Source: Flavobacteriales bacterium
GTDB taxonomy: Bacteria > Bacteroidota > Bacteroidia > Flavobacteriales_D > Parvicellaceae
Length of the DNA stretch: 49,483 nt
Reading direction: 5' to 3'
NCBI GenBank assembly: GCA_029251405.1
Contig: JAQXDK010000018.1
Span: 1 to 49,483, forward strand
Part shown: one piece after another, positions 125 through 42,660 of the stretch
Layout: each line of letters begins with the position of its first letter
Position numbering within the stretch: position 1 is the stretch's first letter
The notes under the pieces: generated by a model
What the model was told of the DNA's origin: nothing
The model's input: only the letters and a program-made list of their open reading frames with translations
The model's database searches: none
Translations under genes and position numbers: made by a program

Positions 125-2365
125 ATGAAAAAAATTACTTTACTATTTATCTCAACTGTTTTAAGTTGTGCATTTTATGCTACTAATCACAATGTGACCA
201 CAGTAGGAAACACTTTTAGTCCAGCAAATATTACAATAAATCAAGGCGATACTGTTACGTGGACTAATGGTGGAGGAAGTCATAATGTAAATGCTACTTT
301 AGCCACTTACCCAAATAACCCAGAAGGTTTTGGAAATAGCGTTAGTTCGTCTTCTTGGACTTTACAACATGTTTTTTCAATACCGGGAACCTACGATTAC
401 CAATGCGATCCTCATACTGGGATGGGTATGGTAGGGACAGTTGTTGTTAATACTGTCTCAACACCAAGTGATTTAACCTTCACTGCTATAATGGACCTTA
501 CTACACCTTCAGCGGGAAATACGGGTAAAGCACTTTTATTAACTGCTAACCAAAGTATTTCTGATTTAAGTATTTATGGAGTTGGTTCTGCTACTAATGG
601 AACTGGGTCAGATGGAGAAGAATATACTTTTCCAGCTATTTCAATAAATGCTGGGCAACATGTTATAATTTGTAGAGATAGTACTGCTTTGTCAAATTAT
701 TTTAATGGTTGTCTAGAACAATTTGCAGGTGCACAATATCCAAATCTAATTATTCAAAGTTCTACTGAGCCTAGTGGAAACGGTAATGATGCTTATGAAT
801 TATTTGAAAACGGATTGGTCGTTGAAACTTTTGGTGATATTACACATACTTACGGTACTAATTATCCATCTATTCCTTGGGGGTATAGAGATTCTTGGGC
901 ATGGAAAGATACGGCTGCGTCAAATGTTGGTAATTGGGTGTTTGGAGGCGATAATTGTACAGACGGATCTACAACCATACAAACATCAAATTGTCCATTT
1001 CCTCTTTGTCCGTCAGTGGTTACATATAACGTAACGTTAGAAGTTAATACAGCTTCCATCTATCAAAATGGAGGAACTGTGGGTCCTAATGGGATGTATG
1101 CAGGTGGAGGATTTGTAGGTAATGCTATGGGTTTACAATTAACACAGAGCACAACTGATACTCTAAAATGGTTTGGTAATGCTACTGTTATTGCTGGGTC
1201 TGGACCAAATCATTATACTTTTTTAAACAGCCCAACTAATGGTGGAGACTGGAATGCTAAAGAAAATTTAGCAGGTCTTCCTTGTGGAGATCCAACAAAC
1301 TATAATGATAGATTGTTGCCAAATATCTTTTCAGATACTACGATTCAACATTGTTTTGGAAGTTGTGAAACAGACGGTTCTTGTCCGCCACCGCCATCAA
1401 GTTTTGTAAATATCACCTTTACTTTAAACGTTTCCTCCATAATTAGTTCAGGTGGTGTTATTGATCCTACTGGAATGTTTATAGCTGGTGGTGGAAATTT
1501 TGGAATTCCTGGTGATAATCCTATGACAGATTTAGGAAATGGAACGTGGAGTTTTACTATTAATAAACCCATTGGTTTTACATCTGATTACACATTTACA
1601 AATGGAGATTCTGGATGGGGAGCTAAGGAAAACATATCTGGATTACCTTGTGCAGTACCTCCTTACGACGATAGAAATTTAGCACCTGTTTATTCTGACA
1701 CCACGATACAGCATTGTTTTGGTACTTGTGATTATGATGGAACTTGTAATTCTGTTGTAAATCCTCCTGCTTCTGTAAATGTTACTTTTCAAGTAGATAT
1801 GTCTGAAGTAACTGATCCTTACAGTGTTCCTGAAATCAATGCAACATTTAATAGTTGGTGTGGAAATTGTAATGCCATGAGTGATACGGATAACGATAGT
1901 GTATGGGATGTTACAATTGCTTTAATTCCTGGAGATACAATTGAATATAAATATTCAGCAGATTCTTGGACTATTCAAGAAACAAATGACCCAGGTGCTT
2001 CTTGTACAAATGGAGATTCAACTTATACAAATAGAGTGCTAGTAATTCCTAATTCTGATATGATTTTGGATGTAGTTTGCTGGGCAAGTTGTGATCCGTG
2101 TGTCTCAGTTCCACCTATTGGAATTGAAGATAACTTGAATAGCGTTTCAATTTTCCCTAATCCAGCCAGTGTAGTAATTAATATATCTTCTTCTCAAATT
2201 ATTGAAAGAATTGAGGTTTTGGATTTAATTGGTAGGATAGTTAAAATTGATAATCCTAACAGTTCTTTCACTACTTTAGATATTTCAGATTTAAACGGAA
2301 ATATATATTTTATTAAATACACAATAAATGGTGAGGTGAAATCTGAAAAGATTTTAATAAGGTAG
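125..2365 (+). CDS. Modular T9SS-secreted protein: cupredoxin + LTD-like + three beta-sandwich modules
   Basis: Secreted multidomain protein of 746 aa. Residues 1-19 are a signal peptide. Residues 20-110 are a plastocyanin-like cupredoxin with a complete type 1 copper set: His53, Cys94, His97 and Met102 (C-x2-H-x4-M). Residues 115-295 form a lamin-tail-like (LTD) domain homologous to the gene at 2448. Residues 298-420 and 427-541 are two copies of a module with a (A/G)GGxF core, a KEN(I/L)xGLPC motif and a SDTTIQHCFG-type end. Residues 550-658 are a divergent Cys-rich third module. Residues 670-746 are a T9SS type A sorting domain with FPNP at 677-680. Family knowledge says T9SS cargo is released or anchored at the cell surface after tail cleavage. 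A copper-binding, electron-transfer or adhesive surface role is inferred. No catalytic domain is seen. A terminator lies on each side, so it is probably monocistronic. Confidence 0.85.
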   Translation: MKKITLLFISTVLSCAFYATNHNVTTVGNTFSPANITINQGDTVTWTNGGGSHNVNATLATYPNNPEGFGNSVSSSSWTLQHVFSIPGTYDYQCDPHTGMGMVGTVVVNTVSTPSDLTFTAIMDLTTPSAGNTGKALLLTANQSISDLSIYGVGSATNGTGSDGEEYTFPAISINAGQHVIICRDSTALSNYFNGCLEQFAGAQYPNLIIQSSTEPSGNGNDAYELFENGLVVETFGDITHTYGTNYPSIPWGYRDSWAWKDTAASNVGNWVFGGDNCTDGSTTIQTSNCPFPLCPSVVTYNVTLEVNTASIYQNGGTVGPNGMYAGGGFVGNAMGLQLTQSTTDTLKWFGNATVIAGSGPNHYTFLNSPTNGGDWNAKENLAGLPCGDPTNYNDRLLPNIFSDTTIQHCFGSCETDGSCPPPPSSFVNITFTLNVSSIISSGGVIDPTGMFIAGGGNFGIPGDNPMTDLGNGTWSFTINKPIGFTSDYTFTNGDSGWGAKENISGLPCAVPPYDDRNLAPVYSDTTIQHCFGTCDYDGTCNSVVNPPASVNVTFQVDMSEVTDPYSVPEINATFNSWCGNCNAMSDTDNDSVWDVTIALIPGDTIEYKYSADSWTIQETNDPGASCTNGDSTYTNRVLVIPNSDMILDVVCWASCDPCVSVPPIGIEDNLNSVSIFPNPASVVINISSSQIIERIEVLDLIGRIVKIDNPNSSFTTLDISDLNGNIYFIKYTINGEVKSEKILIR

Positions 2366-2390
2366 ATAAGAATTACATATTGGTAATATT

Positions 2391-2425
2391 AAGAGCAAAG
2401 CGACTGACTTTGCTCTTTTTTTTTT
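2391..2425 (+). terminator. Intrinsic terminator
   Basis: AAGAGCAAAG pairs perfectly with CTTTGCTCTT (10 bp, 7-nt loop), followed by a run of T. It ends transcription of the large modular gene and separates it from the operon starting at 2448. Confidence 0.93.
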
Positions 2426-2447
2426 AATTTTAGTTTAAAAGTATATT

Positions 2448-3287
2448 ATGAAAATAACCAGTTCAATTTTAATATTCATTGCTTTTGTTCTAAATATAAC
2501 AAGTCAAGCAAGTTTAGAACTTGTGGGAATATTAGATTTAGATTTGCCTGAAGGTGGTTCTTCTGGAAAGGCTATACATTTAAAAGCCAATCAATATATA
2601 ACAAACTTAAGTGATTACGGAATCGGCATTGCTAATAACGGAGGTGGAACTGATGGTCAGGAATATGATTTTCCAAATATAGTTTTAAATTCAGGCGATC
2701 ATATTATTGTTTGTCGAGATACGTTAGCAATTAAATATTATTTTTCAGGATGTAATTCTTTTAATTTTATAATTCAAGACGATTCTTCTGTAATTACCCA
2801 AAATGGTGATGACGCCGTAGAGTTATATGAAAATGGTATTGTTATAGAAACATTTGGTGATGTAAATATTGACGGATCAGGGGAGCTATGGGAATACAAA
2901 GACTCTTGGGCTTATAAAATAGATACTGGTTCTATAATTTTTAGTGGTTTCAGTTGGATTACTGGAGGTGTTGATTGTACAGACTTTTCTGTCACGTCTC
3001 TTTCTTCAAATTGTCCGTATCCGTTTTGTTCTCAAATTAACACAGATATATCTATTCTAAATCCTCTTTCAGTAGCTATTTATCCTAATCCTTGCTTAGA
3101 TAAATTGTTTGTCAATTCTAAAAATAAAATTAAACTTTTAGAAATATTAAATATTAGAGGTCAGATAGTTTCTAGTTTCTGCACTAACCAATCTTATATT
3201 GATGTGTCTGATTTAGAATTAGGAATTTATTTCATTAAAGTTTCCAATAATGAAAATATTTCGCTTTTAAAATTCTTTAAAAATTAA
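2448..3287 (+). CDS. T9SS-secreted LTD-domain protein
   Basis: Protein of 279 aa with a signal peptide (about 1-21), one LTD-like domain (about 22-195) and a C-terminal T9SS type A sorting domain that starts at a YPNP motif. The LTD part aligns along its length with residues 115-295 of the upstream protein (shared GKAxxLxANQ, EYxFPxI, ELxENGxVxETFGD and CPxPxC), so the two are paralogous. LTD domains are known from surface and secreted bacterial proteins, often beside nucleases or phosphoesterases. No such domain is present here and the ligand is unknown. The next ORF starts 2 nt after the stop and no terminator intervenes, so this is probably the first gene of the operon that runs to 7639. 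Confidence 0.8.
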   Translation: MKITSSILIFIAFVLNITSQASLELVGILDLDLPEGGSSGKAIHLKANQYITNLSDYGIGIANNGGGTDGQEYDFPNIVLNSGDHIIVCRDTLAIKYYFSGCNSFNFIIQDDSSVITQNGDDAVELYENGIVIETFGDVNIDGSGELWEYKDSWAYKIDTGSIIFSGFSWITGGVDCTDFSVTSLSSNCPYPFCSQINTDISILNPLSVAIYPNPCLDKLFVNSKNKIKLLEILNIRGQIVSSFCTNQSYIDVSDLELGIYFIKVSNNENISLLKFFKN

Positions 3288-3289
3288 CT

Positions 3290-3460
3290 ATGAAAAAGTT
3301 TTATTTGGCACGAATCTGTTTTACTTATATCACTAGTTTAAATTCGCAAATTATCTATAATTGGCAAAACTCTACTGAAGGATGGGTTAGTGGAGGTAAT
3401 TGTAATTTAACTGCTCAAACAGATGCAATGGCCTTTAAAAAGTTCATTGTAAATAATTAA
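3290..3460 (+). CDS. Small exported 56-aa protein or gene remnant
   Basis: An ATG 2 nt after the preceding stop opens a 56-codon frame ending TAA, 2 nt before the next ATG. Its N-terminus (MKKFYLARIC...) looks signal-peptide-like. The mature part is short and contains a GWVSGGNC motif that loosely recalls the WVFGG-x-NC and WITGG-x-DC ends of the two LTD domains upstream. The exact fit between two genes of a close-packed operon argues that it is translated or was recently a longer gene. It could be a remnant of a third LTD copy. I do not recognise a family. Confidence 0.45.
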   Translation: MKKFYLARICFTYITSLNSQIIYNWQNSTEGWVSGGNCNLTAQTDAMAFKKFIVNN

Positions 3461-3462
3461 TC

Positions 3463-4839
3463 ATGGTCAGATGTTTTATTTGGCTGATTATTTTCCTTTC
3501 ATTTTCTAATTCATTTAGTTCACAAAGTTTAATTTTAGGTGATTATATTCCAGGTAATGGTATTGTTCTTGCTAGTACAGATAACAATTATAAAGTAGTA
3601 TTAAGAGGGTATTCTCAGTCTTTATTCGAATCTAGAACCATTTCATATGATGATTCTTTAATTTCAGATAATAATAGATACAACAGATTTCGAGCAAGAA
3701 GAATTAGATTAAGATTATCAGGAATTCAATCTTACCCAGGTTTTAGTTACAGACTTCAACTTAATCTCGCAGAGTCTGAAGCAGATGACGGTTTATTATC
3801 TAATGTTTTATGGGACGCTTGGTTGGGTTACAATATCAATAAAACAAATAAAATAGTAATTGGTCAAAAGGGTACTCCTACCGATAATATGGAGGTTCAA
3901 ATGGCTTCTAATACTTTACAACTTCCAGAAAGAAGTAGACTTACTGGTGCTTTTTCAAGTATACGAGAAATTGGCTTGTTTTATGATAACAGAATTAAAA
4001 TTGGTAATAAAGCTGTCTTAAAATCTATGTTTAATATTACCACTGGAGATGGATATAGTTATAATGTTAATTCCAGAGATTATGGGGGTTTAAAATATGG
4101 TGCTAGAGTCAATATTCTTCCATTTGGACTATTTAGAAACTTTGGGCAGTTCAGGCAAGTAGATATGGTTAGAGAATTAACTCCAAAATTATTAATTGGA
4201 TTTAGTGGAAGTTTTAATAATGGAATGAGCAGTAGAAGAGGAAGAAGAAATGGTGATTTTTTATTTTACAATATTACAGGTTCAGACACCAGTTTAAGAT
4301 TACCTAATTATATAAAAATAGGTGCAGATTTACTTTTTAAATACAGGGGGTTTTCATTATTAGCAGAGTATGTCAATACTAATGCTTTTATTGCTGATGA
4401 TATTACTCATAGAAACGATAGATATGGGAGCGATCCAACACAAATAATAAGTTCTTTCGGTGCTTTTAAAGAAAATACTTTTTCATCTGTAAATCCAGAT
4501 GAATATGTTAAAAGACAACTCATATTGGGAAGTGGGTTTAATATTCAAGCAGGTTATTTATTTAAATCACTTTTATCTTTAGATGGGAGATTTACCAGGC
4601 TATCTCCAGACAAATTTTCATTTATGAATAATGCTACTTTTTATAATAGACAAAACTGTTACGAGATTGGTTGTAGTAAATATTTTAATAAAAATTATTC
4701 TTTTAAAATCCAAGCATCCTACAGGTTTGTTGATGATGCAAAATTAAGATTACAAAACTATGAAGGTACTGACTATGAAAGGTCAGAGTTTGATGCTTCT
4801 GAGAATATTTTCTATTTAATGGTTCAAATCGCTTTTTAA
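3463..4839 (+). CDS. Outer-membrane porin, Porin_O_P (OprP/OprO-like) family
   Basis: Protein of 458 aa with a signal peptide (about 1-21). The rest is a beta-barrel pattern of alternating residues with the family's landmarks: an early arginine-rich strand (FRARRIRLRLSG), a WDAWLGYNIN segment, an IGQKGTPTDNME segment, an SS-x-REIG block and a YGARVNILPFG block, finishing on an aromatic C-terminal strand (VQIAF). Pseudomonas members are phosphate or polyphosphate selective; the specificity of bacteroidetal members is not established. The stop overlaps the next start (TAATG), so the gene is translationally coupled to the carboxypeptidase. A second porin of the same family follows that gene. Confidence 0.83.
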   Translation: MVRCFIWLIIFLSFSNSFSSQSLILGDYIPGNGIVLASTDNNYKVVLRGYSQSLFESRTISYDDSLISDNNRYNRFRARRIRLRLSGIQSYPGFSYRLQLNLAESEADDGLLSNVLWDAWLGYNINKTNKIVIGQKGTPTDNMEVQMASNTLQLPERSRLTGAFSSIREIGLFYDNRIKIGNKAVLKSMFNITTGDGYSYNVNSRDYGGLKYGARVNILPFGLFRNFGQFRQVDMVRELTPKLLIGFSGSFNNGMSSRRGRRNGDFLFYNITGSDTSLRLPNYIKIGADLLFKYRGFSLLAEYVNTNAFIADDITHRNDRYGSDPTQIISSFGAFKENTFSSVNPDEYVKRQLILGSGFNIQAGYLFKSLLSLDGRFTRLSPDKFSFMNNATFYNRQNCYEIGCSKYFNKNYSFKIQASYRFVDDAKLRLQNYEGTDYERSEFDASENIFYLMVQIAF

Positions 4840-6362
4840 TGAGGTTTTTCACTTTTATAATTTCCACTTTTATCTTCTGCATAATTGTACATGCACAGGA
4901 TTCAAAAAAAATTTCTGAAAAATATTTTCCTGATTTTAATATTGATATTCCCACTCCAGCTTTCGATAAAAAAAAAGGATTTACAAACTATTCAGAAATG
5001 ATGTTGTTCTTAAATAAATGGTGTGAAAAATATCCTACTAAAATATCTTACCAATTTATAGGTAAGTCTCAAAAAGAGAAAAAAATTCCTATGGTTTTTA
5101 TAGGAGATGACAATCTTGATAATTTGAAAGTTTGTTTTATGGGTGGATTACATGGAAACGAACCTGCCAGTACAGAATCAATGTTATTTCTTATTCGCAA
5201 TTTATTGGAAGTCGATACCTTGAAGAGCATCTCCAACAGCTTAAATATTGCAATTATTCCAATGGCAAATATTGATGGATATGAAAAACAAAGTAGGTAT
5301 GCATCTAATGGTGAAGATCTAAATAGGGATCATACTAAGCTGTCAAATCAAGAAACAATAGCAATAAAGGAATCCATTAATAAGTTTTCACCAGATGTAA
5401 TGGTTGATTTCCATGAATACAAGCCTTACAGAGCTGATTTTGTAAATTTTGGAGAGTATGGAACTACTTCCATGTATGATTGTATGTTTTTATATTCTGG
5501 CAATTTAAATGTTTGTCCTACTATTAAAACAGTAATTGAAAAGACTTTTTTGCCACCTGCAAAATTAAAATTAGACGAAAACGGTTTGAAATATCACAAC
5601 TATTTATCTTCTAAACATAAGAATAACAAAATATACTTCAATTTAGGTTCCGTAAGTCCAAGATCAAGTGCTACCTCTTTTGCATTAGGAAATACAATCT
5701 CTATGTTAATGGAAATTAGAGGTGTAGGTTTAAATAGAAACTCTTTTAAAAGACGTGTTTATACCACCTATTTACTTGCTCATTCTTTTCTTAAGACTTC
5801 AATTGATAATTCTGAATATATTCAATCAATATTAAAAAACTGTAATAATTTTCCTGAAAAAATCACTATTAAATATAAAAGAGAAAAGTCTAATTATAAG
5901 CTCAATATGATAGATGTTTATAATAATGATATTATCGATGTGGATATTGTTTTGAATAACGGACTCAAATGTGAAAATCAAACTACCAGAAAACGTCCTT
6001 TTTATTACTTTATTGATAAAGATTTGAGTGTTGTAACAGATAAACTTAAAATTTTGGGATTAAACATTGATACTTTAAAATTTGATGAATTATTTGAGTT
6101 AGAATCTTATAAAATAATTTCACAAAAAAAATCATCTGTAAAGTTTCAAGGGTTTTATGAAAATATAGTTAGTACAACTATTGTGAAAGAACAAAAAGTT
6201 TTAAAAAAAGGAACCTTTGTTGTTCCAATGGATCAAAGAAAATCAAACTTAGCTGTTGAAACACTAGAGCCTGAAATGTTATCTGGTTTTTTAAGATTTA
6301 ATGTTATTGAACCCAACGATATTCAAAAAATTTATCGGTATACTTTAAATAAAAAATTATGA
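4839..6362 (+). CDS. Secreted M14-family zinc carboxypeptidase
   Basis: Protein of 507 aa with a signal peptide ending near HAQ (about 20). The M14 domain spans about 45-310. Its zinc ligands are visible as His105-x2-Glu108 (GGLHGNE) and His192 (VDFHEY). Asn162-Arg163 (EDLNRDH) binds the substrate carboxylate, and the general base is Glu292 (LMEIRG). All catalytic positions are kept, so an active metallocarboxypeptidase is expected in the periplasm or outside. The C-terminal 200 residues are a non-catalytic, probably beta-rich region. The gene overlaps both neighbours (TAATG upstream, ATGA downstream), sitting between two Porin_O_P genes, which suggests that cleavage and outer-membrane passage are linked. 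The substrate is unknown. Confidence 0.85.
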   Translation: MRFFTFIISTFIFCIIVHAQDSKKISEKYFPDFNIDIPTPAFDKKKGFTNYSEMMLFLNKWCEKYPTKISYQFIGKSQKEKKIPMVFIGDDNLDNLKVCFMGGLHGNEPASTESMLFLIRNLLEVDTLKSISNSLNIAIIPMANIDGYEKQSRYASNGEDLNRDHTKLSNQETIAIKESINKFSPDVMVDFHEYKPYRADFVNFGEYGTTSMYDCMFLYSGNLNVCPTIKTVIEKTFLPPAKLKLDENGLKYHNYLSSKHKNNKIYFNLGSVSPRSSATSFALGNTISMLMEIRGVGLNRNSFKRRVYTTYLLAHSFLKTSIDNSEYIQSILKNCNNFPEKITIKYKREKSNYKLNMIDVYNNDIIDVDIVLNNGLKCENQTTRKRPFYYFIDKDLSVVTDKLKILGLNIDTLKFDELFELESYKIISQKKSSVKFQGFYENIVSTTIVKEQKVLKKGTFVVPMDQRKSNLAVETLEPEMLSGFLRFNVIEPNDIQKIYRYTLNKKL

Positions 6363-7639
6363 CAAGAATAATAGTATCCTTCTTTTTAACCTGTTTACTT
6401 TCATTGAATTTATCGTCTCAAGAGGTTCAATTAATAAATGAATCCAGTTATGATAAGAATAATAGTTACAAATACCAATTAGGATCTGGGTTAGTGTTTA
6501 ATTTTGATGACAGCACCCATGTATTTAAAATTGGTGGAATGGTGCAATCCAGATTTTTGAATGAAAATTTTAAGGATTCACTTACAGAAGCATTTAATTA
6601 TTTTGGTATAAAAAGATCTTATTTTAATTTAAGTGGTTCATTAAATAATGGAAGATTTTCATTTTTAGTTCAAACTAATTTTAGTGAATCTTTTCCTTTA
6701 TTAGATGCTTGGATAGGTTGTCATCCAAATGAAAATATAAGTTTGTTTTTTGGTCAAAAAATGTCGCCGTTTAATAACCTTTCTATGCAGATAATGGAAT
6801 ATGATTTACAGTTTGCTTCCAGAAATTATTTATCTCAAACATTTACAAATTTAGGTAGAGAATTTGGTGTTTTCTTAGAAAGTAAATTTAATCTTGGTAA
6901 GATAGGAGTTAAATCTTCTTTAGCAGTAACGAGTGGAGATGGAATTAATTCCTTTGGACAAAATTCTTTAGATAGTGACCAAGGTGGCTTTAAATACGGT
7001 GGAAGAATTAATCTATACCCATTTGGATTCTTTAAATCTAATAATGAATTGGTTGGACATGATTTTGCTAAAGAGAATAATTTAAAATTATTAATTGGTG
7101 GCGCTTCTAGTCTTAATATTGGATCTAGTCATAAGTTAGGTGAGGGGCATTATAATGAAAATCATCTTAGCGATGCTACATTTATGTTCTTCGATTCTTC
7201 AGGAAATAAAATATTACCAAATTACTTGAAAAATTATGTTGATGTTTTATTAAAATATAAAGGATGGAATGTTTTGTTTGAGTATGTAAATACAGCTGGC
7301 TATAAATTACAAGGTAGTTCATTGAATTCATCAGGCTCTAATTTACTTGAACCCACCGAAATAAGTCAATATTTAATTTTGGGAAATGCCTACAACCTAC
7401 AAGTTGGTTATTTATTTAATAGTAGCTGGTCTTTAGATGCAAAGTGGGGTCAATCTTTTTACGAGTTTAAAGAAACTTATTCATTGTTACAGAATTACGA
7501 TTCAATGGGGGGAGGAATAACTAAATATTTTTCAAATAGAGCTATTAAAGCACAATTAATGGCTAATTATATAAATTTCCCAAACAATACTAAAATAAAC
7601 AGGTTAAATATTGAATGTCTTTTACAAGTTGTTTTTTAG
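6359..7639 (+). CDS. Second Porin_O_P outer-membrane porin
   Basis: Protein of 426 aa with a signal peptide (about 1-20) and the same barrel landmarks as the porin at 3463: IKRSYFNLSG strand, LDAWIG, FFGQKMSPFNN, LGREFG, KYGGRINLYPFG and a C-terminal strand ending LLQVVF. The two porins are clearly related but diverged, so this is an old duplication or a hetero-pair rather than a recent copy. The start overlaps the carboxypeptidase stop as ATGA. The stop codon interlocks with that of the convergent gene on the other strand, with no terminator between them. Confidence 0.82.
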   Translation: MTRIIVSFFLTCLLSLNLSSQEVQLINESSYDKNNSYKYQLGSGLVFNFDDSTHVFKIGGMVQSRFLNENFKDSLTEAFNYFGIKRSYFNLSGSLNNGRFSFLVQTNFSESFPLLDAWIGCHPNENISLFFGQKMSPFNNLSMQIMEYDLQFASRNYLSQTFTNLGREFGVFLESKFNLGKIGVKSSLAVTSGDGINSFGQNSLDSDQGGFKYGGRINLYPFGFFKSNNELVGHDFAKENNLKLLIGGASSLNIGSSHKLGEGHYNENHLSDATFMFFDSSGNKILPNYLKNYVDVLLKYKGWNVLFEYVNTAGYKLQGSSLNSSGSNLLEPTEISQYLILGNAYNLQVGYLFNSSWSLDAKWGQSFYEFKETYSLLQNYDSMGGGITKYFSNRAIKAQLMANYINFPNNTKINRLNIECLLQVVF

Positions 7640-8427
7640 TTTTTTTTTAAACCTTTAATGATTTTAAAGGCAACTTTTTGAAATAACGGAGCGGTATTCC
7701 TTTCTGTTATTATGTAGTAAATCTTTTTACCGTCAATATTTTCTCCTTCAAATCTTCTAGGAAGTCCAATAGGACTCTCATTAGTGATTATAGAATAGAA
7801 AACACATGCCGAAAGGTATGTAGCATTTGGTGAGGGGTGTTTATTATCATCCATGTATAGCTTTATTTCTGGATTGTTTTTCTCAATGTATGAGAAAGCA
7901 TTACCTACTGGAACATAAACCGCGCTATTGAGCTTAGATAGGGAGTCAAGTAACTCCATAGTATTGTGTTTTCTAGACTTAGATACATTTTGGAGATAAG
8001 GATATTCCCAAGTTCCATATACTAAAGGAATGGCGTTATTTGCTTTAGAATAATTAATAAAAAGGTTAAGATATTTCGCACACGTATCTATATTTAAGAG
8101 GGGATTGGTACTGTGATCATTAAGGACTACATAATTATATTTTTTTATTGGATAATTATTTTCTAAGTGTAAATTCCAGTGTTTTTTCAAGTCGCTTCCA
8201 CCAATTGTAATTTGGTCAACCTCAATATTTTTATTGCTTTTAACAAACATGGATTCTAAAACCTGCGGTAAATTCCAGTAGAAAGTAAAACTATTTCCAA
8301 TCATTAGAATCTTCGTACTCTTTGTCGTGTCACTAGTGAAATCTAAATTTTCAATGGAGTTGCTGTAACTTGATAAGCAAGAAAATGAAATATAAATAAA
8401 AAAGAAAAATTTAAAAATTACTTCCAT
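7636..8427 (-). CDS. Exported SGNH/GDSL-type hydrolase
   Basis: Predicted esterase/lipase-like hydrolase. Block I is the GNSFT motif with the nucleophile Ser, block II is GGS, block III is an LNDHS segment, and the D-x2-H of block V lies in DDNKHPSPNATY. I chose the ATG at 8427 because translation from there begins with a hydrophobic signal peptide (MEVIFKFFFFIYISFSC). A longer in-frame start at 8484 would add 19 residues inside the upstream gene and bury the signal. The gene overlaps the LTD lipoprotein gene upstream by 17 nt, so the two are co-transcribed. It may be a carbohydrate esterase; the substrate cannot be told. Confidence 0.72.
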   Translation of the reverse strand: MEVIFKFFFFIYISFSCLSSYSNSIENLDFTSDTTKSTKILMIGNSFTFYWNLPQVLESMFVKSNKNIEVDQITIGGSDLKKHWNLHLENNYPIKKYNYVVLNDHSTNPLLNIDTCAKYLNLFINYSKANNAIPLVYGTWEYPYLQNVSKSRKHNTMELLDSLSKLNSAVYVPVGNAFSYIEKNNPEIKLYMDDNKHPSPNATYLSACVFYSIITNESPIGLPRRFEGENIDGKKIYYIITERNTAPLFQKVAFKIIKGLKKN

Positions 8428-9112
8428 CTGTTTTAGTTCCTGGAGAAAACAACGTTCCTGGATTAACACTGTTGTGTTGCACAAAATCCCCAGTTATGTC
8501 AGGGCTTCTAGTGTAAGATTCATCTGGACTATTGGATAACGGATCAATGTCAAATTCGATTAAAATATTTCCTAAACTATCAGTAAAAGTCATTAAATCC
8601 CCTGCAGAATTGCTACTACCATTATTAAGATTCATGACGACATTTGAAGAGATAAAAACTAACCCCCCACCAAATTGACCTACTGCAGTTCCACCTCCAA
8701 AAACTATTACTGGTTGGTTGGGGTTTACAAAAGTATTATTGGGAAACTGATGATTTGGGATCCCCGAAGTTAGATTGGATCTATCATATATTTTACAACC
8801 ACTTATATCTATACAAGAGGAGGAGTTGTTTATAAATTCCACAAATTCATCTTGATTTGGATCTCTAGTCCCGTCATTATTTGCATCACCAGCTAACCCA
8901 GATGGTGGATCGTACAATACTTCATTTAATATAAAACCAGATGTGGTTGAATTTATATATACAGTATCATTAGCTATAGTTGTGGAAGTTGTGTCAATAT
9001 TATTTTCTATTGGTTGTACATCATTTGTTTTAGCACAGCTAATATTTGCAGTGTAGATTACAGAAATTAAAAAGAACCAAAAAAATATTTTATGATGTAA
9101 TTTAGATTTCAT
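8411..9112 (-). CDS. LTD (lamin tail) domain lipoprotein
   Basis: Protein of 233 aa with a lipoprotein-type signal ending in ANISC (Cys26), then a Thr/Ser/Asn-rich linker (27-55) and a classic LTD domain. The LTD begins FILNEVLYDP, carries a D-x-N-x-D-G-type acidic loop (GDANNDGTRDPNQDE) and continues as EFVEFINNS and DISGCKIYD. LTD domains are thought to mediate surface or nucleic-acid/cell-wall association; the ligand here is unknown. It overlaps the SGNH hydrolase gene and is read divergently from the alpha/beta hydrolase gene at 9155. No sorting tail is present, so it probably stays membrane-anchored. Confidence 0.72.
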   Translation of the reverse strand: MKSKLHHKIFFWFFLISVIYTANISCAKTNDVQPIENNIDTTSTTIANDTVYINSTTSGFILNEVLYDPPSGLAGDANNDGTRDPNQDEFVEFINNSSSCIDISGCKIYDRSNLTSGIPNHQFPNNTFVNPNQPVIVFGGGTAVGQFGGGLVFISSNVVMNLNNGSSNSAGDLMTFTDSLGNILIEFDIDPLSNSPDESYTRSPDITGDFVQHNSVNPGTLFSPGTKTDGSNF

Positions 9113-9128
9113 TTTAAAACTTTTAAAT

Positions 9129-9136
9129 CAAATATA
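9129..9136 (-). promoter_or_regulatory. Bacteroidota -7 box
   Basis: The minus strand reads TATATTTG, a match to the bacteroidetal TAnnTTTG -7 element, 16 nt upstream of the LTD lipoprotein ATG in the 42-nt divergent spacer. No clear TTG -33 element was found. Confidence 0.5.
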
Positions 9137-9154
9137 ATCATTAATTTCACCTAA

Positions 9155-10051
9155 GTGAATATTCTTAAATACATAATATTTTCTCTTATTGTTGTCGTTT
9201 CTAGCTGTAGAAAAGATACAAATACTCCATCTAATTCCAATCCATTTGAAAATAATAATTATGGAATTTTTGAATTCACGGATTATGAACCACTCTCTAA
9301 TAAACCATTTAACATACATTTTTATATTCCAACTTTAGCTAATAGAGAGAATTCACCTATAGTATTTGTTTTTCCAGGACAAAATAGAAATGCAAATGAC
9401 TACTTACAATCTTGGATTCAATTGGCAGATCAATATCAAATCATGGTTTTCTCTTTTGAATTCACTGATGATTATTATCCAACTAGTACTTCTTATCAAT
9501 TAGGGTTTGTCAGAGATTTCAATAGTAATTTTAACAATGAAGATGTTTGGACATTTTCTGCAATTGAACCTGTCTTTGATAAAATTAAAACCAATTTAAA
9601 CTATAAAGGAAATTCTTACAACATGTTTGGTCATTCTGCAGGAGCACAATTTGTTCATCGTTTCATTCAGTTTAAACCTTTGTCAAGAGTTGAAAAGGCT
9701 GTTTCTGCAAACGCCGGTTGGTATACTTTGCCAGATACAACAATAGATTTTCCGTTTGGATTAAAAGGGACTTTAATAAGTACTAATGATTTGCAAAATT
9801 CTTTTTTAAAAACATTAGAAGTCCATCTTGGACAAAATGATAACGATCCTAACGATCCATATTTAAACACAACCGATGGAGCTAATAGGCAAGGTGCTTT
9901 TAGACTCTCAAGAGGACAATACTTTACTGCATACAGCGATTCAATTGCACAGTCTATGAATTTTAATTCCAATTGGATAAAGAAAGAAGTTCCCAATGTT
10001 GGACATCAACAGTTAGATATGGCCATTTTTGCAGCCAATGAATTGTTTTAA
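9155..10051 (+). CDS. Alpha/beta-hydrolase lipoprotein (poly-ester/feruloyl-esterase-like)
   Basis: Protein of 298 aa. Its GTG start is followed at once by a lipoprotein signal with lipobox VSSC (Cys18), which fixes the start. The hydrolase fold carries the nucleophile elbow GHSAG (Ser161), an oxyanion segment FVFPGQNRN and a late His284 (VGHQQLD) as the catalytic His. The arrangement resembles the secreted PHB-depolymerase/feruloyl-esterase-like group, but assignment to one enzyme is not possible by eye. Its stop abuts the convergent NrtR-like gene with no intergenic base. It lies in a small group of exported hydrolase/LTD genes (7636-10051). Confidence 0.7.
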   Translation: MNILKYIIFSLIVVVSSCRKDTNTPSNSNPFENNNYGIFEFTDYEPLSNKPFNIHFYIPTLANRENSPIVFVFPGQNRNANDYLQSWIQLADQYQIMVFSFEFTDDYYPTSTSYQLGFVRDFNSNFNNEDVWTFSAIEPVFDKIKTNLNYKGNSYNMFGHSAGAQFVHRFIQFKPLSRVEKAVSANAGWYTLPDTTIDFPFGLKGTLISTNDLQNSFLKTLEVHLGQNDNDPNDPYLNTTDGANRQGAFRLSRGQYFTAYSDSIAQSMNFNSNWIKKEVPNVGHQQLDMAIFAANELF

Positions 10052-10756
10052 TTATATTTCGAAATTAAACCCTGTTTTTTTCAGTCTTTCATATTTGTCT
10101 TTGTCAAAACTAAAAAGCTTTGCTGGACGGTGAGAAACACTTTTTTGGTTTTTGCCAGTGTCGATCAATAATTTCATAGAATTAATTTTTTTTCTAAAAT
10201 TCCTTTTGTCAAATTTCTTTTCTAGAATGGATTCATAAAGGTTTTGAAGATCGGATAAGGTAAACTTATCAGGTAATAATTCAAATCCTACAGGTTTTCT
10301 TTTAACGTTTTTAACCAATTCTTCTTTACATGCAGCAAAAATTTTATTATGATCAAAAGCCAACTCACCAATTCTATTTACATTATGCCATTTAGCTTCT
10401 AAAGAGTAAGAGGAGGGACTGTTGTTTTTATTAGTAGGAGATAAATTATATTCTTTTATTTTTAATAAACTGTAATGCGAAATGGTGAATACTCTTCCCA
10501 ATGGGTGTCTCCCCAAATCGCCAAAGGTTTTAACTTGTTCTGTAAATACGTTCTCCAGTCCTGTTAGGTCTGTTAAAACTCTATTTACAGCTTCTTCCGT
10601 ATTTTCTTGAGGATGAACTAAATCCCCGGGTAAAGCCCAAAAGTCGACATAGGGATCGACACCTCTTTTTATTAAAAGAACTTTCAATGTAGTTTCATCA
10701 TATCCAAAAATCACACAATCTACAGAAACCGAATAGCTGAAATTATTTTTAATCAT
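10052..10756 (-). CDS. NrtR-like transcriptional regulator (degenerate Nudix + winged helix)
   Basis: Protein of 234 aa. Residues 1-150 are a Nudix fold (VDCVIFGYDETTLKVLLIKRG, FWALPGDLV). The C-terminal part (about 160-234) is the winged-helix region typical of NrtR-type regulators (TLSDLQNLYE, DKRNFRKK, RPAKLFSFD). The Nudix box is broken: after the conserved Gly it has NR where the family has RE and lacks the EE pair, so pyrophosphatase activity is unlikely and ligand sensing is expected. Bacteroidetal relatives control NAD or pentose metabolism genes. No such gene is adjacent; the closest minus-strand neighbours are a cupin and fmt. Confidence 0.78.
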   Translation of the reverse strand: MIKNNFSYSVSVDCVIFGYDETTLKVLLIKRGVDPYVDFWALPGDLVHPQENTEEAVNRVLTDLTGLENVFTEQVKTFGDLGRHPLGRVFTISHYSLLKIKEYNLSPTNKNNSPSSYSLEAKWHNVNRIGELAFDHNKIFAACKEELVKNVKRKPVGFELLPDKFTLSDLQNLYESILEKKFDKRNFRKKINSMKLLIDTGKNQKSVSHRPAKLFSFDKDKYERLKKTGFNFEI

Positions 10757-10777
10757 AGTCTAAATATAATAAAAACA

Positions 10778-11176
10778 TTAATTTTTATAAACTCTATCTT
10801 CTCCCAAAAATTCAGGTGACTGGATAGAAATAACTTTCATTGGAGTTTCGGAATTTGTTACCACACCATGCCATGTGTTTTTAGGGACAATTATTACATC
10901 TCCAGCACTTACAGTGTATAAAGAGTCTTTTAATTGAAAGATTCCTGAACCTTCATGAATTACAACATTTTCTGTGTGATAAACATGTTTATGTAATTTT
11001 ACTTTTTGTTTTATCCATATGACAAAGGTGGTGGATAAAGAATCTGAAGAAATTTTATGGGCATGTATATTTTGATACTCATTCTTTGGATTTATATTTT
11101 TTAAATTTGATATAGTTCCTTGAGCATTGTAGTTCATGGATATAATTACGAATAAAGTTAAGATAAGAGTTTTCAT
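10778..11176 (-). CDS. Exported cupin-domain protein
   Basis: Protein of 132 aa with a short signal peptide (about 1-19) and one cupin_2 barrel. The first cupin motif supplies His67, His71 and Glu73 (HKHVYHTEN... reading H-x3-H-x-E), and the second supplies the His of PKNTWHG, giving a plausible metal site. Its start overlaps the fmt stop as ATGA, so it rides in the rlmI-fmt transcript. An exported small cupin could be a metal-dependent isomerase/dioxygenase-like enzyme or a binding protein; no substrate can be read from sequence. Confidence 0.68.
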   Translation of the reverse strand: MKTLILTLFVIISMNYNAQGTISNLKNINPKNEYQNIHAHKISSDSLSTTFVIWIKQKVKLHKHVYHTENVVIHEGSGIFQLKDSLYTVSAGDVIIVPKNTWHGVVTNSETPMKVISIQSPEFLGEDRVYKN

Positions 11177-12105
11177 AAAATTGAATAATCTACTATGTTA
11201 GAATAACCTTTCAAAAACTCATTGGTTTTCATTCTTTTCTTTCCTTCCATTTGAATTTCAGTTAGTTCTAATGCATTTCCATTAGTGCCAACAAAAAGTT
11301 TATCATCTGTAATTACCAATTTTTTTATTGGATATTTTTTATTCGATAGTTGCGCATTAAAAACCTTAAAATTTAATAATTTATTGTTGTAAGATAATTT
11401 AGTCCAAGCACCAGGATAGGGGTTAAGCCCTAAAGTTAATTGCCTAATTTCTTCAGCTGATTTATTCCAATTTATCTTTGTATTTTCTCTATTTAATTTA
11501 GGAGCCAATTTTAATTTTAAAGAATCATTTTGCTTTTTGCTTCCAGAATAATCAGAAGAAATTGTTTCAATAGTTTTCAATACTAAATGTGCTCCTTTGG
11601 TCATTAGTGTATCGTGTAGCTCGCCAGCAGTAGTACCATCATCAATAGATACTTTTTCAGTCAAAATAACAGCTCCAGTATCAATTTTCTCATCAATGAA
11701 AAAAGTGGTAATACCAGTATTTTTTTCTCCATTAATAATGGCCCAGTTTATAGGTGCAGCTCCTCTGTAATTAGGAAGGATAGAAGCGTGTAGATTTACG
11801 GTTCCCAACTTAGGGATTTTCCATACAACTTCAGGAAGCATTCTAAAAGCAACAACGACGATAATATCAGGTTCTAATTCTTTTAATTGGCATACAAATT
11901 TTTCATCTTTTAGTTTTTCTGGTTGCAAAAGATTTAATTGGTGTTTTAATGAGAAAATTTTAACTGCAGATTGGTTTATTTTATTGCCTCTGCCAGCAGG
12001 TTTATCAATCGAAGTAGCCACACCAACTAACTGATGATTACTATGATGAATTTTTTCAAGAACTTTAACAGCAAATGGGGGAGTGCCCATAAAAAATATC
12101 TTCAT
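11173..12105 (-). CDS. fmt: Methionyl-tRNA formyltransferase
   Basis: Formylates initiator Met-tRNA with 10-formyl-THF. The start is taken at 12105, giving MKIFFMGTPPFAV, the family's usual N-terminus and a 310-aa protein. An upstream in-frame ATG at 12144 lies inside rlmI and adds a non-homologous 13 residues. The catalytic hydrolase-fold signature LPNYRGAAPINWAI and the following TGITTFFID are intact, and the C-terminal OB-like domain (NPYPGAW) is present. It lies 1 nt after rlmI and overlaps the cupin gene downstream. Confidence 0.95.
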   Translation of the reverse strand: MKIFFMGTPPFAVKVLEKIHHSNHQLVGVATSIDKPAGRGNKINQSAVKIFSLKHQLNLLQPEKLKDEKFVCQLKELEPDIIVVVAFRMLPEVVWKIPKLGTVNLHASILPNYRGAAPINWAIINGEKNTGITTFFIDEKIDTGAVILTEKVSIDDGTTAGELHDTLMTKGAHLVLKTIETISSDYSGSKKQNDSLKLKLAPKLNRENTKINWNKSAEEIRQLTLGLNPYPGAWTKLSYNNKLLNFKVFNAQLSNKKYPIKKLVITDDKLFVGTNGNALELTEIQMEGKKRMKTNEFLKGYSNIVDYSIL

Positions 12106-15074: not shown

Positions 15075-18000
15075 ATGGATCAAGTTCCTTATCAACCTAA
15101 AAATAAAATTAGAATCGTTACTGCTGCTTCTCTTTTTGATGGTCATGATGCTGCTATCAATATTATGAGACGAATTATTCAATCTACAGGCTGTGAAGTC
15201 ATTCATTTAGGTCATGATAGAAGTGTTGAAGAAGTGGTGAATTGCGCCATACAAGAAGATGTACAAGCAATAGCTATGACATCTTATCAAGGAGGACATA
15301 ACGAATATTTTAAGTTTATGTACGACTTGCTATTAGAAAAAGGTGCTAATCAAATTAAGATTTTTGGTGGTGGAGGCGGAACAATATTACCTGAAGAAAT
15401 TAAAGTTTTGGAGGATTATGGAATTGCCAAAATATATCATCCAGATGATGGTCGAAAAATGGGTTTACAGGGAATGATCAATGATTTAGTAAAAAAATGT
15501 GATTTTCCAACAGGAAACAAAAATTTAAAAAATTTAAAAAATCTTACCCACGAAAAGCATTTGCAAATTGGGAATTTCATATCCTCAGCTGAAAACTATG
15601 GTGATCAAAATATTGATATTCTAAATAAAATCAAAATCACTGCTGTAAAAAATAACATTCCTGTCTTAGGTATCACGGGTACAGGTGGTGCGGGTAAATC
15701 GTCATTAGTAGATGAACTTGTGAGAAGGTTTTTAATGGATTTTCAAGACAAGAATTTAGCGATCGTTTCTGTGGATCCTTCTAAAAGAAAAACAGGTGGC
15801 GCATTGTTAGGGGATCGAATTCGGATGAATTCCATAAATAATAACAGAGTATATATGCGTTCATTAGCAACAAGGCAAAGTAATCTAGCGCTTTCTAAAC
15901 ATGTTGCTCAAGCTGTTGACATTTTGAAGTTTTCTAATTTTGATCTAATAATTCTAGAAACCTCTGGAATAGGACAATCCGATACTGAGATATTAGATCA
16001 CAGTGATGTTTCACTCTATGTTATGACTCCTGAGTTTGGTGCGGCTACACAGCTGGAAAAAATTGACATGCTGGACTTTGCGGATGTAGTTGCTTTAAAT
16101 AAATTCGATAAAAGAGGTTCTTTAGATGCGATAAGAGATGTTAAAAAACAATACAGAAGGAATCATAACTTGTGGGAGGCCAAAGATGAAGATATACCTG
16201 TTTATGGTACTATTGCTTCTCAATTTAACGATCCTGGAATGAATGTACTTTACAAACATTTAATGGATTTGGTAAATAATTTTTCGAGTCATAATTTTAA
16301 ATCTTCCTTTCTATCTGAAAAAGAACTTTCTGAAAAGATATTTATAATTCCTCCAAATAGAATTAGGTATTTATCTGAGATTTCTGAGAATAACAGGCTT
16401 TTTGATAAGAATATAAACAATCAGGTTGAAATAGCTGATCGATTGTATGCATTGAATAAAGCATTAGTTGAATTTAAAGATGATGCTAAAGTAAAGAGCG
16501 AACTGGAGAATAAAATTAAAGCAATCGCGTTGGATTTTGAACCAAGAAATCAAAAAACAATTAACGAGTGGGAAGAGTTATGCAACTCTTACTCAAAAGA
16601 TTTTTTCATTTTTAATGTAAGAGGAAAAGAAATAAAGATAGCTACATCTTCTAATTCTCTTTCTCATTCTAAAATTCCAAAAGTAGTATTACCTAAGTTT
16701 ACCTCTTGGGGAGATATGGTAAGGTGGAGTAATCAAGAAAATGTTCCGGGTAAATTTCCATTTACTGCTGGTTTATTCCCGTTCAAAAGGGAAGGAGAGG
16801 ATCCCACTAGAATGTTTGCTGGTGAGGGTGGTCCCGAAAGAACGAATAAGAGGTTTCATTACTTAAGCTATCAAATGCCCGCTAAGAGACTATCTACTGC
16901 ATTTGATTCAGTTACTCTATATGGTAATGATCCGGGTTTAAGACCAGATATATATGGTAAAATTGGAAATGCTGGTGTTTCTATTTGTTGCTTAGATGAT
17001 GCAAAGAAACTTTATTCAGGTTTTGATTTATCTTCTCCAAATACTTCTGTAAGTATGACTATAAACGGACCTGCACCTATGCTATTAGGTTTTTTTATGA
17101 ATGCTGCTATTGATCAGAATTGTGAAAAGTACATCATAGAAAATAAATTAGAAGCTGCCGTTGAGAAAATCATAAAAAAGATTTACGGAGCTAAAACTCC
17201 ACCCAAATATCAAGGAGATTTACCAAGCGGTAATAATGGATTAGGGCTTATGTTGTTGGGGGTTACTGGCGATCAAGTGCTTCCAAAAGAAATATATCAA
17301 TCTATAAAATCTGCAACTTTAGCTCAAGTAAGAGGGACGGTTCAGGCAGATATTTTAAAAGAAGATCAAGCACAAAACACCTGCATTTTTTCCACAGAAT
17401 TTGCACTTAGGTTAATGGGTGATGTTCAAGAATATTTTATTAAAAATAAAGTGAGAAACTTTTATTCTGTTTCTATTTCAGGATATCATATTGCAGAAGC
17501 AGGCGCTAATCCTATTACGCAGTTGGCTTTTACTTTATCAAACGGTTTTACTTACGTAGAGTATTACTTGTCTAGAGGCATGTCAATTGACGATTTTGGT
17601 CCTAATTTATCTTTTTTCTTTTCTAACGGAATCGATCCAGAGTATGCTGTAATTGGAAGAGTTGCAAGAAGAATTTGGGCAAAAGCAATGAAGTTAAAAT
17701 ACGGAGCTGGGGAAAGAGCACAAAAACTTAAATATCATATTCAAACTTCAGGAAGATCTTTACATGCTCAAGAAATTGATTTTAATGATATAAGAACAAC
17801 ACTACAAGCACTATATGCCATTTATGATAATTGTAACTCACTACACACTAATGCTTATGATGAAGCTATTACAACACCTACAGAAGATTCGGTAAGAAGA
17901 GCAATGGCTATTCAGCTAATCATAAATAAAGAATTGGGTCTGGCAAAAAATGAGAATCCTTTACAAGGTTCTTATATTATTGAAGAATTAACTTCTCTAG

Positions 18001-18431
18001 TTGAAGAAGCTGTTTTAATTGAATTTGATAGAATTAATGAAAGAGGGGGTGTTCTAGGTTCTATGGAAACAATGTATCAAAGAAGTAAAATTCAAGAAGA
18101 ATCTCTACATTATGAGACTTTAAAGCACACTGGAGAATATCCAATTATTGGAGTCAATACATTTTTGAATTCAAAAGGATCACCAACCATTATTCCAAGC
18201 GAAGTTATTCGTGCAAACACGGAAGAAAAAGAATATCAAATTTCAATGCTTAAAGATTTTAAAAATTTTAATACAAAATTTTCACAAAGCGCATTAGATG
18301 ATGTGAAAAATGCTGCATTAAACCAAGAAAATATTTTCGATGTTTTAATGGAAGCGACCAAGACTTGTTCTTTAGGACAAATTACCAACGCACTCTTCGA
18401 TGTAGGTGGTCAGTACAGGAGAAATATGTAG
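15075..18431 (+). CDS. icmF: Fused isobutyryl-CoA mutase-type B12 enzyme (IcmF family)
   Basis: Protein of 1118 aa carrying both mutase parts and its G-protein chaperone in one chain. Residues 10-145 are the B12-binding domain with FDGHDAA (Asp22, His24 as lower cobalt ligand), Ser70 and GGGGG near 98-102. Residues 195-410 are a MeaB-type GTPase with Walker [10 protein letters not shown] at 202-210 and a NKFD guanine motif. The rest is the radical mutase TIM barrel. [10 protein letters not shown] puts Phe where methylmalonyl-CoA mutase has Tyr, and ILKEDQAQN puts Gln where it has Arg, the isobutyryl-CoA pattern. Adenosylcobalamin-dependent isobutyryl/n-butyryl-CoA interconversion is therefore expected, with pivalyl- or other acyl-CoA use possible. 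The name should not be confused with the type VI secretion IcmF. Confidence 0.9.
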
Positions 18432-41511: not shown

Positions 41512-42660
41512 ATGAAAAAAATATACACACTTATTTTTACAGCCCTTTCTCTGAGTTTTACAGCTCAAGTTGAAGGTACTTGGAAATTATCCCAAACCCC
41601 AGGTGCATTAGGAGTTGGTCCAACACAAGGAGACATAGGTTGGTGGAGTAATTCTGCCGCAGATTTAACAGCAAGAGCTTGTTTATTTGATGATTCAATA
41701 TCATTTAATGCAAATGGTGATTTTATGCATTATATGGACGGGTCTACTTGGATTGAAACGTGGCAAGGAGTTGCTGCTGAACAATGTGGTACACCTGTTG
41801 CACCTCATGATGGATCAGGATCTTTTACATATGTTTTTGCTAATAATCAACTTACAGTAAATGGTACTGGAGCTCACATTGGTTTAGCTAAAGCTACAAA
41901 TAGTGGAGAGCTAAGTGCTGCTAATCCTCCAGCTGTTCCTACTTCAAATACCTACGAAATTATGATGTCTGCAAACGGAGATACACTTACAGCGGATATT
42001 GATTTCGGTGGTGGATGGTGGAGATTTGTTTATACAAAAACAGGTTTGGCTCCAGCTCCTCCAGCAGCTTCTCATACAGTTACTTTTAACGTACATACAG
42101 ATTTAATTGCTGGAAATGTTTCTGCTGATGGTATCTACATTGGTGGTGGATTTGTTGGAAATAATGATGCTTTATTATTAGATGATTCTGATGGTGATGG
42201 TATTTGGTCTGGAAGTACAACTTTACCTGCAGCAGGTGGTCATTTCACTATTTTAAATGGTAATTGCTCTGATTGGTCTTGTAAAGAAGATATTTCTGGT
42301 CAACCATGTGCAGATGCTGGAAACTATAATGATAGAAATAACCTATTAGGTGGTTTCTCTCAAGATACAACACTAAATTTACAATATGGTTCTTGCGATA
42401 CACCCGGAACAGGTATTAACGAATTAGATAATAAACTATCTATTTTCCCAAATCCTTCTAACGGTGTTCTTAATATAAAAGCATCACAAAACATCAGTTC
42501 TGTGAATATTTATAACATGATTGGGAATTTAGTAATGGTTAAGAGTATTGCTAACAATCAGTCAATATTAAATATAGAAAGTTTAACTAATGGAGTTTAC
42601 TTCATAGAGTTTAACCTAAATAACGGTTCAACATTAAATTCTAAAATTATCAAAAGATAG
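41512..42660 (+). CDS. T9SS-secreted two-domain protein, paralogue 1
   Basis: Protein of 382 aa. A signal peptide (about 1-19) precedes an N-terminal domain (20-178) that begins VEGTWKLSQTPGALGVGP and carries WWSNSA, ACLFDDS and CGTPVAPHDG. This lipocalin-like domain is one I associate with marine Bacteroidota glycan-related secreted proteins. Residues 188-296 are the (I/V)GGGF module with an acidic DDSDGDG loop and CKEDISGQPC, homologous to the two modules at 298-541 of the protein starting at 125. Residues 304-382 are a T9SS type A tail with FPNP at 312-315. No enzyme domain is present; glycan binding is inferred. A terminator follows. Confidence 0.83.
   Translation: MKKIYTLIFTALSLSFTAQVEGTWKLSQTPGALGVGPTQGDIGWWSNSAADLTARACLFDDSISFNANGDFMHYMDGSTWIETWQGVAAEQCGTPVAPHDGSGSFTYVFANNQLTVNGTGAHIGLAKATNSGELSAANPPAVPTSNTYEIMMSANGDTLTADIDFGGGWWRFVYTKTGLAPAPPAASHTVTFNVHTDLIAGNVSADGIYIGGGFVGNNDALLLDDSDGDGIWSGSTTLPAAGGHFTILNGNCSDWSCKEDISGQPCADAGNYNDRNNLLGGFSQDTTLNLQYGSCDTPGTGINELDNKLSIFPNPSNGVLNIKASQNISSVNIYNMIGNLVMVKSIANNQSILNIESLTNGVYFIEFNLNNGSTLNSKIIKR

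Follow-up and report, generated by a model that had tools for sequence, protein, structure and literature searches.

The window analysed here comprises 49,483 nucleotides of a Flavobacteriales bacterium of the family Parvicellaceae (GenBank assembly GCA_029251405.1, contig JAQXDK010000018.1) and is contig C25 of a 2.23-Mb genome that is 97% complete and distributed over 53 contigs. Near its start, five open reading frames (ORFs) follow each other on the + strand at 2448-3287, 3290-3460, 3463-4839, 4839-6362, and 6359-7639, the last three of which encode the core of the unit: two different outer-membrane porins, named porin A (3463-4839) and porin B (6359-7639), and between them a zinc carboxypeptidase of family M14 (4839-6362). 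The junctions of the five ORFs are, in order, two gaps of 2 nt each, a 1-nt overlap (TAATG), and a 4-nt overlap (ATGA), and the stop codon of the porin B gene (7637-7639) is interlocked with that of a convergent ORF on the minus strand, which ends at 7636. Ahead of them lies an intrinsic terminator-like hairpin on the + strand (2391-2425, stem 2391-2417; 10 pairs, 4 of them G-C, and a T tail), which separates the unit from an upstream gene for a protein sorted by the type IX secretion system (T9SS) and is the sole + strand terminator-like stem with a T run found within 2200-10200. Spacing, terminator, and interlocked convergent stop had been described in an earlier note on this DNA, and ORF and hairpin checks bear out all of them. 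A promoter scan did no better than shuffled sequences (45 found, shuffle mean 48).

Conservation of the porin A - M14 - porin B order

Relatives of the locus were picked by their M14 gene and not by their porins. Searches for M14 gave a match in 10 of 11 genomes of the genus, nine of these matches being orthologous; in 22 of 39 genomes of the family at E ≤ 0.001, with 12 orthologues plus a 25-residue fragment at a contig edge; in 26 of 399 genomes sampled from the order at E ≤ 1e-40; and in six of 395 from the phylum at E ≤ 1e-30, a count that includes the own genome and two distant matches. From a named genome collection we took the best 80 of 152 relatives and examined 27 of them (L105-L131); the remaining 53 match only in part, at 24-37% identity. 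Among the matches listed, the nearest named M14 relatives are 69-71% identical and come from bins of uncultured Flavobacteriales, for instance Bacteroidetes bacterium MED-G20. Of 62 neighbour-profile records 53 were kept, three with SusC/SusD genes and 50 of the porin type, after exclusion of the duplicates L105, L106, and L129, of L032 (no orthologue), of L103 and L104 (distant M14), and of L051, L198, and L199, in which M14 lies beyond the contig end. Among the 50 porin-type loci, the upstream side is cut at M14 in four (L030, L031, L064, L065) and the downstream side in eight (L025, L059, L066, L120, L121, L124, L125, L130). The set contains some redundancy: L056/L057 and L060/L061 look near-identical, L119 and L131 are two Flammeovirga, and L064 and L066 are two contigs of one genome.

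According to the neighbour profiles, the gene directly upstream of M14 is porin A at 46 of 46 assessable porin-type loci, and the one directly downstream is porin B at 42 of 42. In the reverse search, porin A orthologues (at least 42% identity) occur in 25 of the 399 genomes of the order, 24 of which contain M14; in the remaining one the contig breaks off within porin A. Weaker porin matches in other genomes are common (134 of the 399 at E ≤ 1e-10) and represent porin B or further porins. The core order is kept at 34-47% identity between families while the flanking genes vary. The earlier note had made its idea of a functional unit depend on whether the porins adjoin M14 elsewhere, and the outcome is strongly positive. 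It is well supported that porin A - M14 - porin B is a real, conserved unit, which forms the core of the locus.

The carboxypeptidase and the two porins

The product of the middle gene (4839-6362, + strand) matches PF00246 with 66.2 bits against a cut-off of 21.6 (E 5e-18). It contains the zinc ligands HxxE and H, the catalytic Glu, and the substrate Asn-Arg, and H105, E108, R153, N162, R163, H192, and E292 are invariant in 16 of 16 M14 sequences. Its fold was aligned to carboxypeptidase B over residues 38-325 (Z 22.8) and is that of the carboxypeptidases A/B, with which it shares the catalytic residues, whereas it differs from them by an extra C-terminal part (about residues 335-507), by an identity of 11-19% in the fold alignments, and by its linkage to porins. 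The assignment to the M14 zinc carboxypeptidases with all catalytic residues, made in the earlier note, is confirmed by profile, residues, and fold. The N-terminus resembles a signal peptide, as judged by eye. One lead for specificity is the conserved R275, located by counting back from the catalytic Glu to near the presumed S1' region, short of which the PDB alignments ended; this residue may favour acidic C-termini.

Porins A and B are ~30% identical to each other. Neither of the two matches the Porin_O_P profile PF07396 at E ≤ 1, whereas 17 of 23 relatives of porin A and four of 23 relatives of porin B do so at E ≤ 0.01. The predicted model of porin A (pLDDT 77) is an OprP-type barrel that has its best PDB matches in OprP/OprO (2o4v, 4rjx/4rjw; E 3e-12 to 2e-11, rmsd ~7 A), followed by many other 16-strand porins, and the N-terminal part of porin B gives a profile match to OprO (E 0.01). 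Because relatives match PF07396 and the porin A model fits OprP/OprO best, the Porin_O_P label proposed before is reasonable for both proteins and firmer for porin A, even though it is not borne by the window copies themselves. The net charge is positive for porin A in 22 of 23 homologues and negative for porin B in 22 of 23, and 20 arginines of porin A are kept in at least 80% of its 23 homologues. The identity of ~30%, the fixed places around M14, and the opposite net charge support the view that the two diverged porins are distinct channels.

The sole gene of this genome above the Porin_O_P cut-off lies on another contig (C44; L197, 3312-4484); its product is 28% identical to porin A (E 4e-19), and its neighbour is presumably a Na/Pi cotransporter. 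With the phosphate porins OprP/OprO the unit has in common the predicted barrel, a distant sequence kinship, and the basic nature of porin A. It could hence be argued that both are phosphate- or anion-uptake porins sharing an operon with an unrelated peptidase. We consider this very improbable, as porin B is acidic, the gene beside the putative Na/Pi cotransporter is the one on C44, and the window pair is found with M14 at every assessable porin-type locus. The unit also differs from OprP/OprO in that two porins of unlike charge keep fixed places on either side of a peptidase, and in that the window porins themselves escape detection by Pfam.

Accessory genes and the exchange of porins for SusC/SusD

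Downstream of the core, the minus-strand gene at 8411-9112 encodes a probable lipoprotein with a Lamin Tail Domain (LTD; PF00932, E 1.3e-10, 42.1 bits against a cut-off of 34.3), which is a candidate surface-binding partner of the porins. Of the 13 loci in the window's family, 10 have an ORF with the LTD profile, as do 23 of the 38 other porin-type loci. A strict lipobox pattern is found in 17 of 41 such ORFs, and many relatives of the LTD protein have acidic residues after the Cys, which we take to resemble the known signal for surface export of lipoproteins. The next gene (9155-10051, + strand) encodes an esterase-like alpha/beta hydrolase, the window copy of which gave no Pfam match at E ≤ 0.001; its residues S161, D229, and H284 are conserved in 43 of 43, 42 of 42, and 42 of 42 homologous ORFs, respectively. 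Outside the window's family the hydrolase occurs at 26 of 38 porin-type loci. In L128, a Xylanibacter ruminicola bin, one ORF (9071-11389) is a natural fusion of the hydrolase (residues 14-292) with M14 (residues 298-771), and the hydrolase is therefore tied to the system. Between porin B and the LTD gene, the minus strand encodes an SGNH-hydrolase-like DUF4886 protein (7636-8484; PF16227, E 3e-7), the listed TTG start of which is probably too early and homologues of which adjoin the unit in relatives of the window's family. Thus, the five ORFs of the earlier note stand, but not their limit, since the recurrent locus extends downstream to the LTD protein and the alpha/beta hydrolase, and other families add the C4-dicarboxylate transporter DcuC and the isoaspartyl dipeptidase IadA.

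The assignment of IadA and DcuC is based on NCBIfam tests of the cluster proteins of three loci (TIGR01975, IadA, above cut-off in two of three; DcuC in three of three) and on profiles built from seven. At the 38 porin-type loci outside the window's family, counted without discount for contig ends, DcuC is present 27 times, IadA 26 times, a MocR-type regulator 14 times, an SLC13 symporter 13 times, and an SDF symporter three times. Within the order, IadA at E ≤ 1e-60 is found in 12 of the 399 genomes, in 10 of them above the family cut-off, and all 12 are among the 26 genomes with M14; the hypergeometric p of 3e-16 ignores kinship and overstates the association, because related genomes are not independent. 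IadA lies on the same contig as M14 in 11 of these genomes and beside porin A at a contig end in the remaining one. In a phylum sample of 175 genomes IadA occurs in two, once at the locus described here and once in G492, whose 5.2-kb contig gave no match to the profiles of the unit, a weak null as the gene picker missed IadA itself; an ORF near this IadA is presumably S51-like. In L055 (G198, contig C42), the M14 gene contains an in-frame TGA, and the contig begins within IadA, so that only a fragment of it is present.

The window's own genome has only weak partial amidohydrolase matches to IadA (best E 1.2e-5) and none at E ≤ 1e-60. The same holds for the family: weak partial matches occur in 29 of 39 genomes, none of them at the level of IadA, the 12 genomes with M14 included, and IadA is present at none of the 13 loci. 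Since the sister group of the window's family in the M14 tree has both IadA and DcuC, loss is the simplest reading, and the window's family seems to have lost both. An Asparaginase_2 gene, present elsewhere in the window's own genome, was considered as a stand-in for IadA; it occurs in 10 of the 12 M14-bearing family genomes, but also in genomes without the unit, and is therefore uninformative.

In three loci, L126 (Bacteroidia bin), L127 (Bacteroidales bin), and L128, SusC and SusD stand where the porins would be. DcuC-IadA-M14 form a tightly spaced run there, on one strand together with SusC and SusD, and the examined stretches, which for L128 include only 0.9 kb downstream, contain neither porin A nor porin B nor an LTD-profile protein. 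With the distant M14s as outgroup, the three form one clade (97/97), on long branches, inside the porin-type M14 tree. As genes with SusC/SusD profiles are also found 3.4-5 kb upstream in the porin-type loci L056 and L057, proximity to SusC/SusD is in itself not rare, and the tight spacing is thus the stronger point. For the window, the statement of the earlier note that the unit contains no SusCD is right, as there is no SusC/SusD-profile match within 9 kb of M14, the upstream stretch being only 4.8 kb. RagAB is a SusC/SusD-type importer of peptides. The unit resembles SusC/SusD nutrient loci in combining outer-membrane uptake, degradative enzymes, and an inner-membrane carrier in one locus, and differs from them by a porin pair and an LTD protein in place of SusC/SusD. 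The examined orthologous loci are all in Bacteroidota, and the operon may travel as a block, so that the gene order could reflect shared ancestry or horizontal transfer without functional coupling. This we regard as the least probable explanation, as the core order persists between families at the low identities given above while the flanks differ, IadA and DcuC occur in two orientations, and SusC/SusD replace the porins in three loci.

Upstream of the core, the product of 2448-3287 (+ strand) is a T9SS-sorted secreted protein, which appears to be accessory. The T9SS tail claimed before was recovered (PF18962, E 6e-13, 49.4 bits against a cut-off of 27), but the LTD label was not: PF00932 has no match there at E ≤ 1 and sits instead on 8411-9112, so that the protein is LTD-like by loose similarity only. 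It gives a weak match to the ExeM model over residues 32-141 (E 0.02) and is 41% identical to part of the product of 125-2365, another T9SS-sorted protein, which contains a copper-binding plastocyanin/azurin domain (PF00127, E 2e-13) and relatives of which flank the unit in other genomes. Proteins resembling one of these two products lie directly upstream of porin A in nine of nine family relatives sequenced there.

The 56-codon ORF at 3290-3460 (+ strand) had been regarded as a tiny exported peptide and functional part of the unit, a view that we reject. The upstream side of porin A is available in six relatives of the genus (L024-L029), and in L024-L028 this position is occupied by a gene of 367-389 codons, the N-terminal part of which is 55-69% identical to the 56-aa product; L029 has no match to it at that place. 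A split comparison with L025, L026, and L027 places the product as the first 48 and the last 8 residues of the long protein (FKKFIVNN in the window against RQKFIVKK, RKKFIVKN, and YKKFLVNK, respectively), with 311-313 codons missing in frame. The ORF is best read as the leftover scar of an in-frame deletion of ~312 codons in a T9SS-protein gene of ~370 codons, with an assembly artefact as another possibility, and not as an independent gene. Elsewhere in the window, two adjacent similar T9SS-type secreted proteins (41512-42660 and 42765-43904) look by eye like a tandem duplication, and an ORF of 1118 aa (15075-18431) presumably encodes a fused acyl-CoA mutase with B12-binding and GTPase parts.

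Proposed function and significance

The attached carriers and IadA together indicate aspartyl or isoaspartyl peptides. We propose that the locus encodes an outer-membrane uptake-and-trimming module for small peptides, probably of this kind, a reading that we consider about equally likely to be right or wrong. On the cell surface, the LTD protein would hold or present the substrate; small peptides would enter, without TonB, through the two differently charged channels, and M14 would remove C-terminal residues in the periplasm. In relatives, inner-membrane carriers of the DcuC, SLC13, or SDF type may then import the released aspartate, dicarboxylates, or beta-aspartyl dipeptides, and IadA, where present, would split the last of these in the cytoplasm. 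The likeliest substrates would be peptides that are rich in aspartate or contain isoaspartyl residues, such as those of aged protein. As DcuC and IadA are apparently lost in the window's family, M14 and other peptidases would have to complete the digestion there. It is our conjecture that M14 itself might cover the lost step, because PMC10206079 reports a broad range of beta-aspartyl dipeptides as substrates of IadA enzymes and beta-Asp-Arg/Lys hydrolases among the enzymes of the M14 family.

Several observations weigh against this proposal. None of the 13 loci in the window's family has a carrier of the DcuC, SLC13, or SDF type at the unit, and none of the 39 family genomes gave a DcuC match, in a search that had no positive control. 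IadA has no match in the examined stretch, uncut there, of nine more porin-type loci (L111, L116-L121, L125, L131), whose whole genomes were not searched and two of which (Flammeovirga) keep DcuC; isoaspartyl peptides are therefore not demonstrable as the substrate of the core. PMC10206079 characterizes IadA enzymes as promiscuous, within beta-aspartyl dipeptides. The charge rule has exceptions, in that porin A of L101 is net negative and porin B of L054 neutral. The strict lipobox pattern fails on the LTD protein of the window, whose lipid anchor was therefore judged by eye, and a pure peptide substrate leaves the alpha/beta hydrolase unexplained.

The dispensability of IadA and DcuC at these 13 and nine loci, together with an M14 fold closest to pancreatic-type carboxypeptidases, would also fit a general scavenging of oligopeptides, in which ordinary peptides are imported and trimmed by M14, and IadA, as one dipeptidase of several, says little about the substrate. 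We think this rather unlikely, since IadA is confined to genomes with M14 (12 of 12 in the 399-genome sample) and the attached carriers belong to dicarboxylate or acidic-amino-acid families. Another alternative is the scavenging of cyanophycin, in which the porins would let in beta-Asp-Arg dipeptides for cleavage by M14 or IadA. In its favour, published cyanophycin-use clusters contain IadA, and M14-family enzymes are among the reported beta-Asp-Arg/Lys hydrolases (PMC10206079). These clusters resemble those of the window's relatives in having IadA and a transporter in one locus, whereas the unit lacks a cyanophycinase, its core consists of M14 and two porins, and the window is without IadA. 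The cyanophycinase family S51 (PF03575) is present in none of the 11 genus genomes, several of which are incomplete, and among 51 genomes searched it was found in 24, where, if M14 is present, it lies on other contigs or ~140 kb off (G685). As the M14 studied here moreover resembles carboxypeptidase A/B, this alternative was not supported and appears improbable, even though L104 has a distant M14 (25%) close to a T9SS-tailed protein of the S51 family (4467-6494). The latter locus may be a cyanophycin locus in its own right, with a gene nearby that presumably encodes an ornithine aminotransferase. Adjacent S51 peptidase and Asparaginase_2 genes, a candidate pair for cyanophycin degradation, were seen in two family genomes away from the unit (G022, C41, 10057-11720, L191 and L195; G018, C7, 39389-41049, L192 and L196).

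Our searches of an open-access library found no description of such a locus, and by these searches the uptake-and-trimming module is undescribed; it is of a known general kind, the nutrient-uptake loci of Bacteroidota, with unusual parts. In a wider and more tentative reading, which we hold to be possible but doubtful, it would represent a way for Bacteroidota to acquire peptides independently of TonB: two OprP-type porins of complementary charge, together with an LTD surface protein, would take the role of SusC/SusD, the periplasmic M14 would be specialised for aspartyl or isoaspartyl peptides of damaged proteins, and the enzyme set would be interchangeable between the porin-pair and the SusCD versions. 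Named relatives, Salegentibacter sp. R32, Chryseobacterium angstadtii, and Polaribacter sp. BAL334, carry the complete locus, which makes the proposal testable. If it is true, a porin family named for phosphate would be tied to peptide uptake, porins would have been swapped for SusC/SusD within one pathway, and there would be a concrete candidate for the recovery of aspartyl and isoaspartyl peptides by Bacteroidota.

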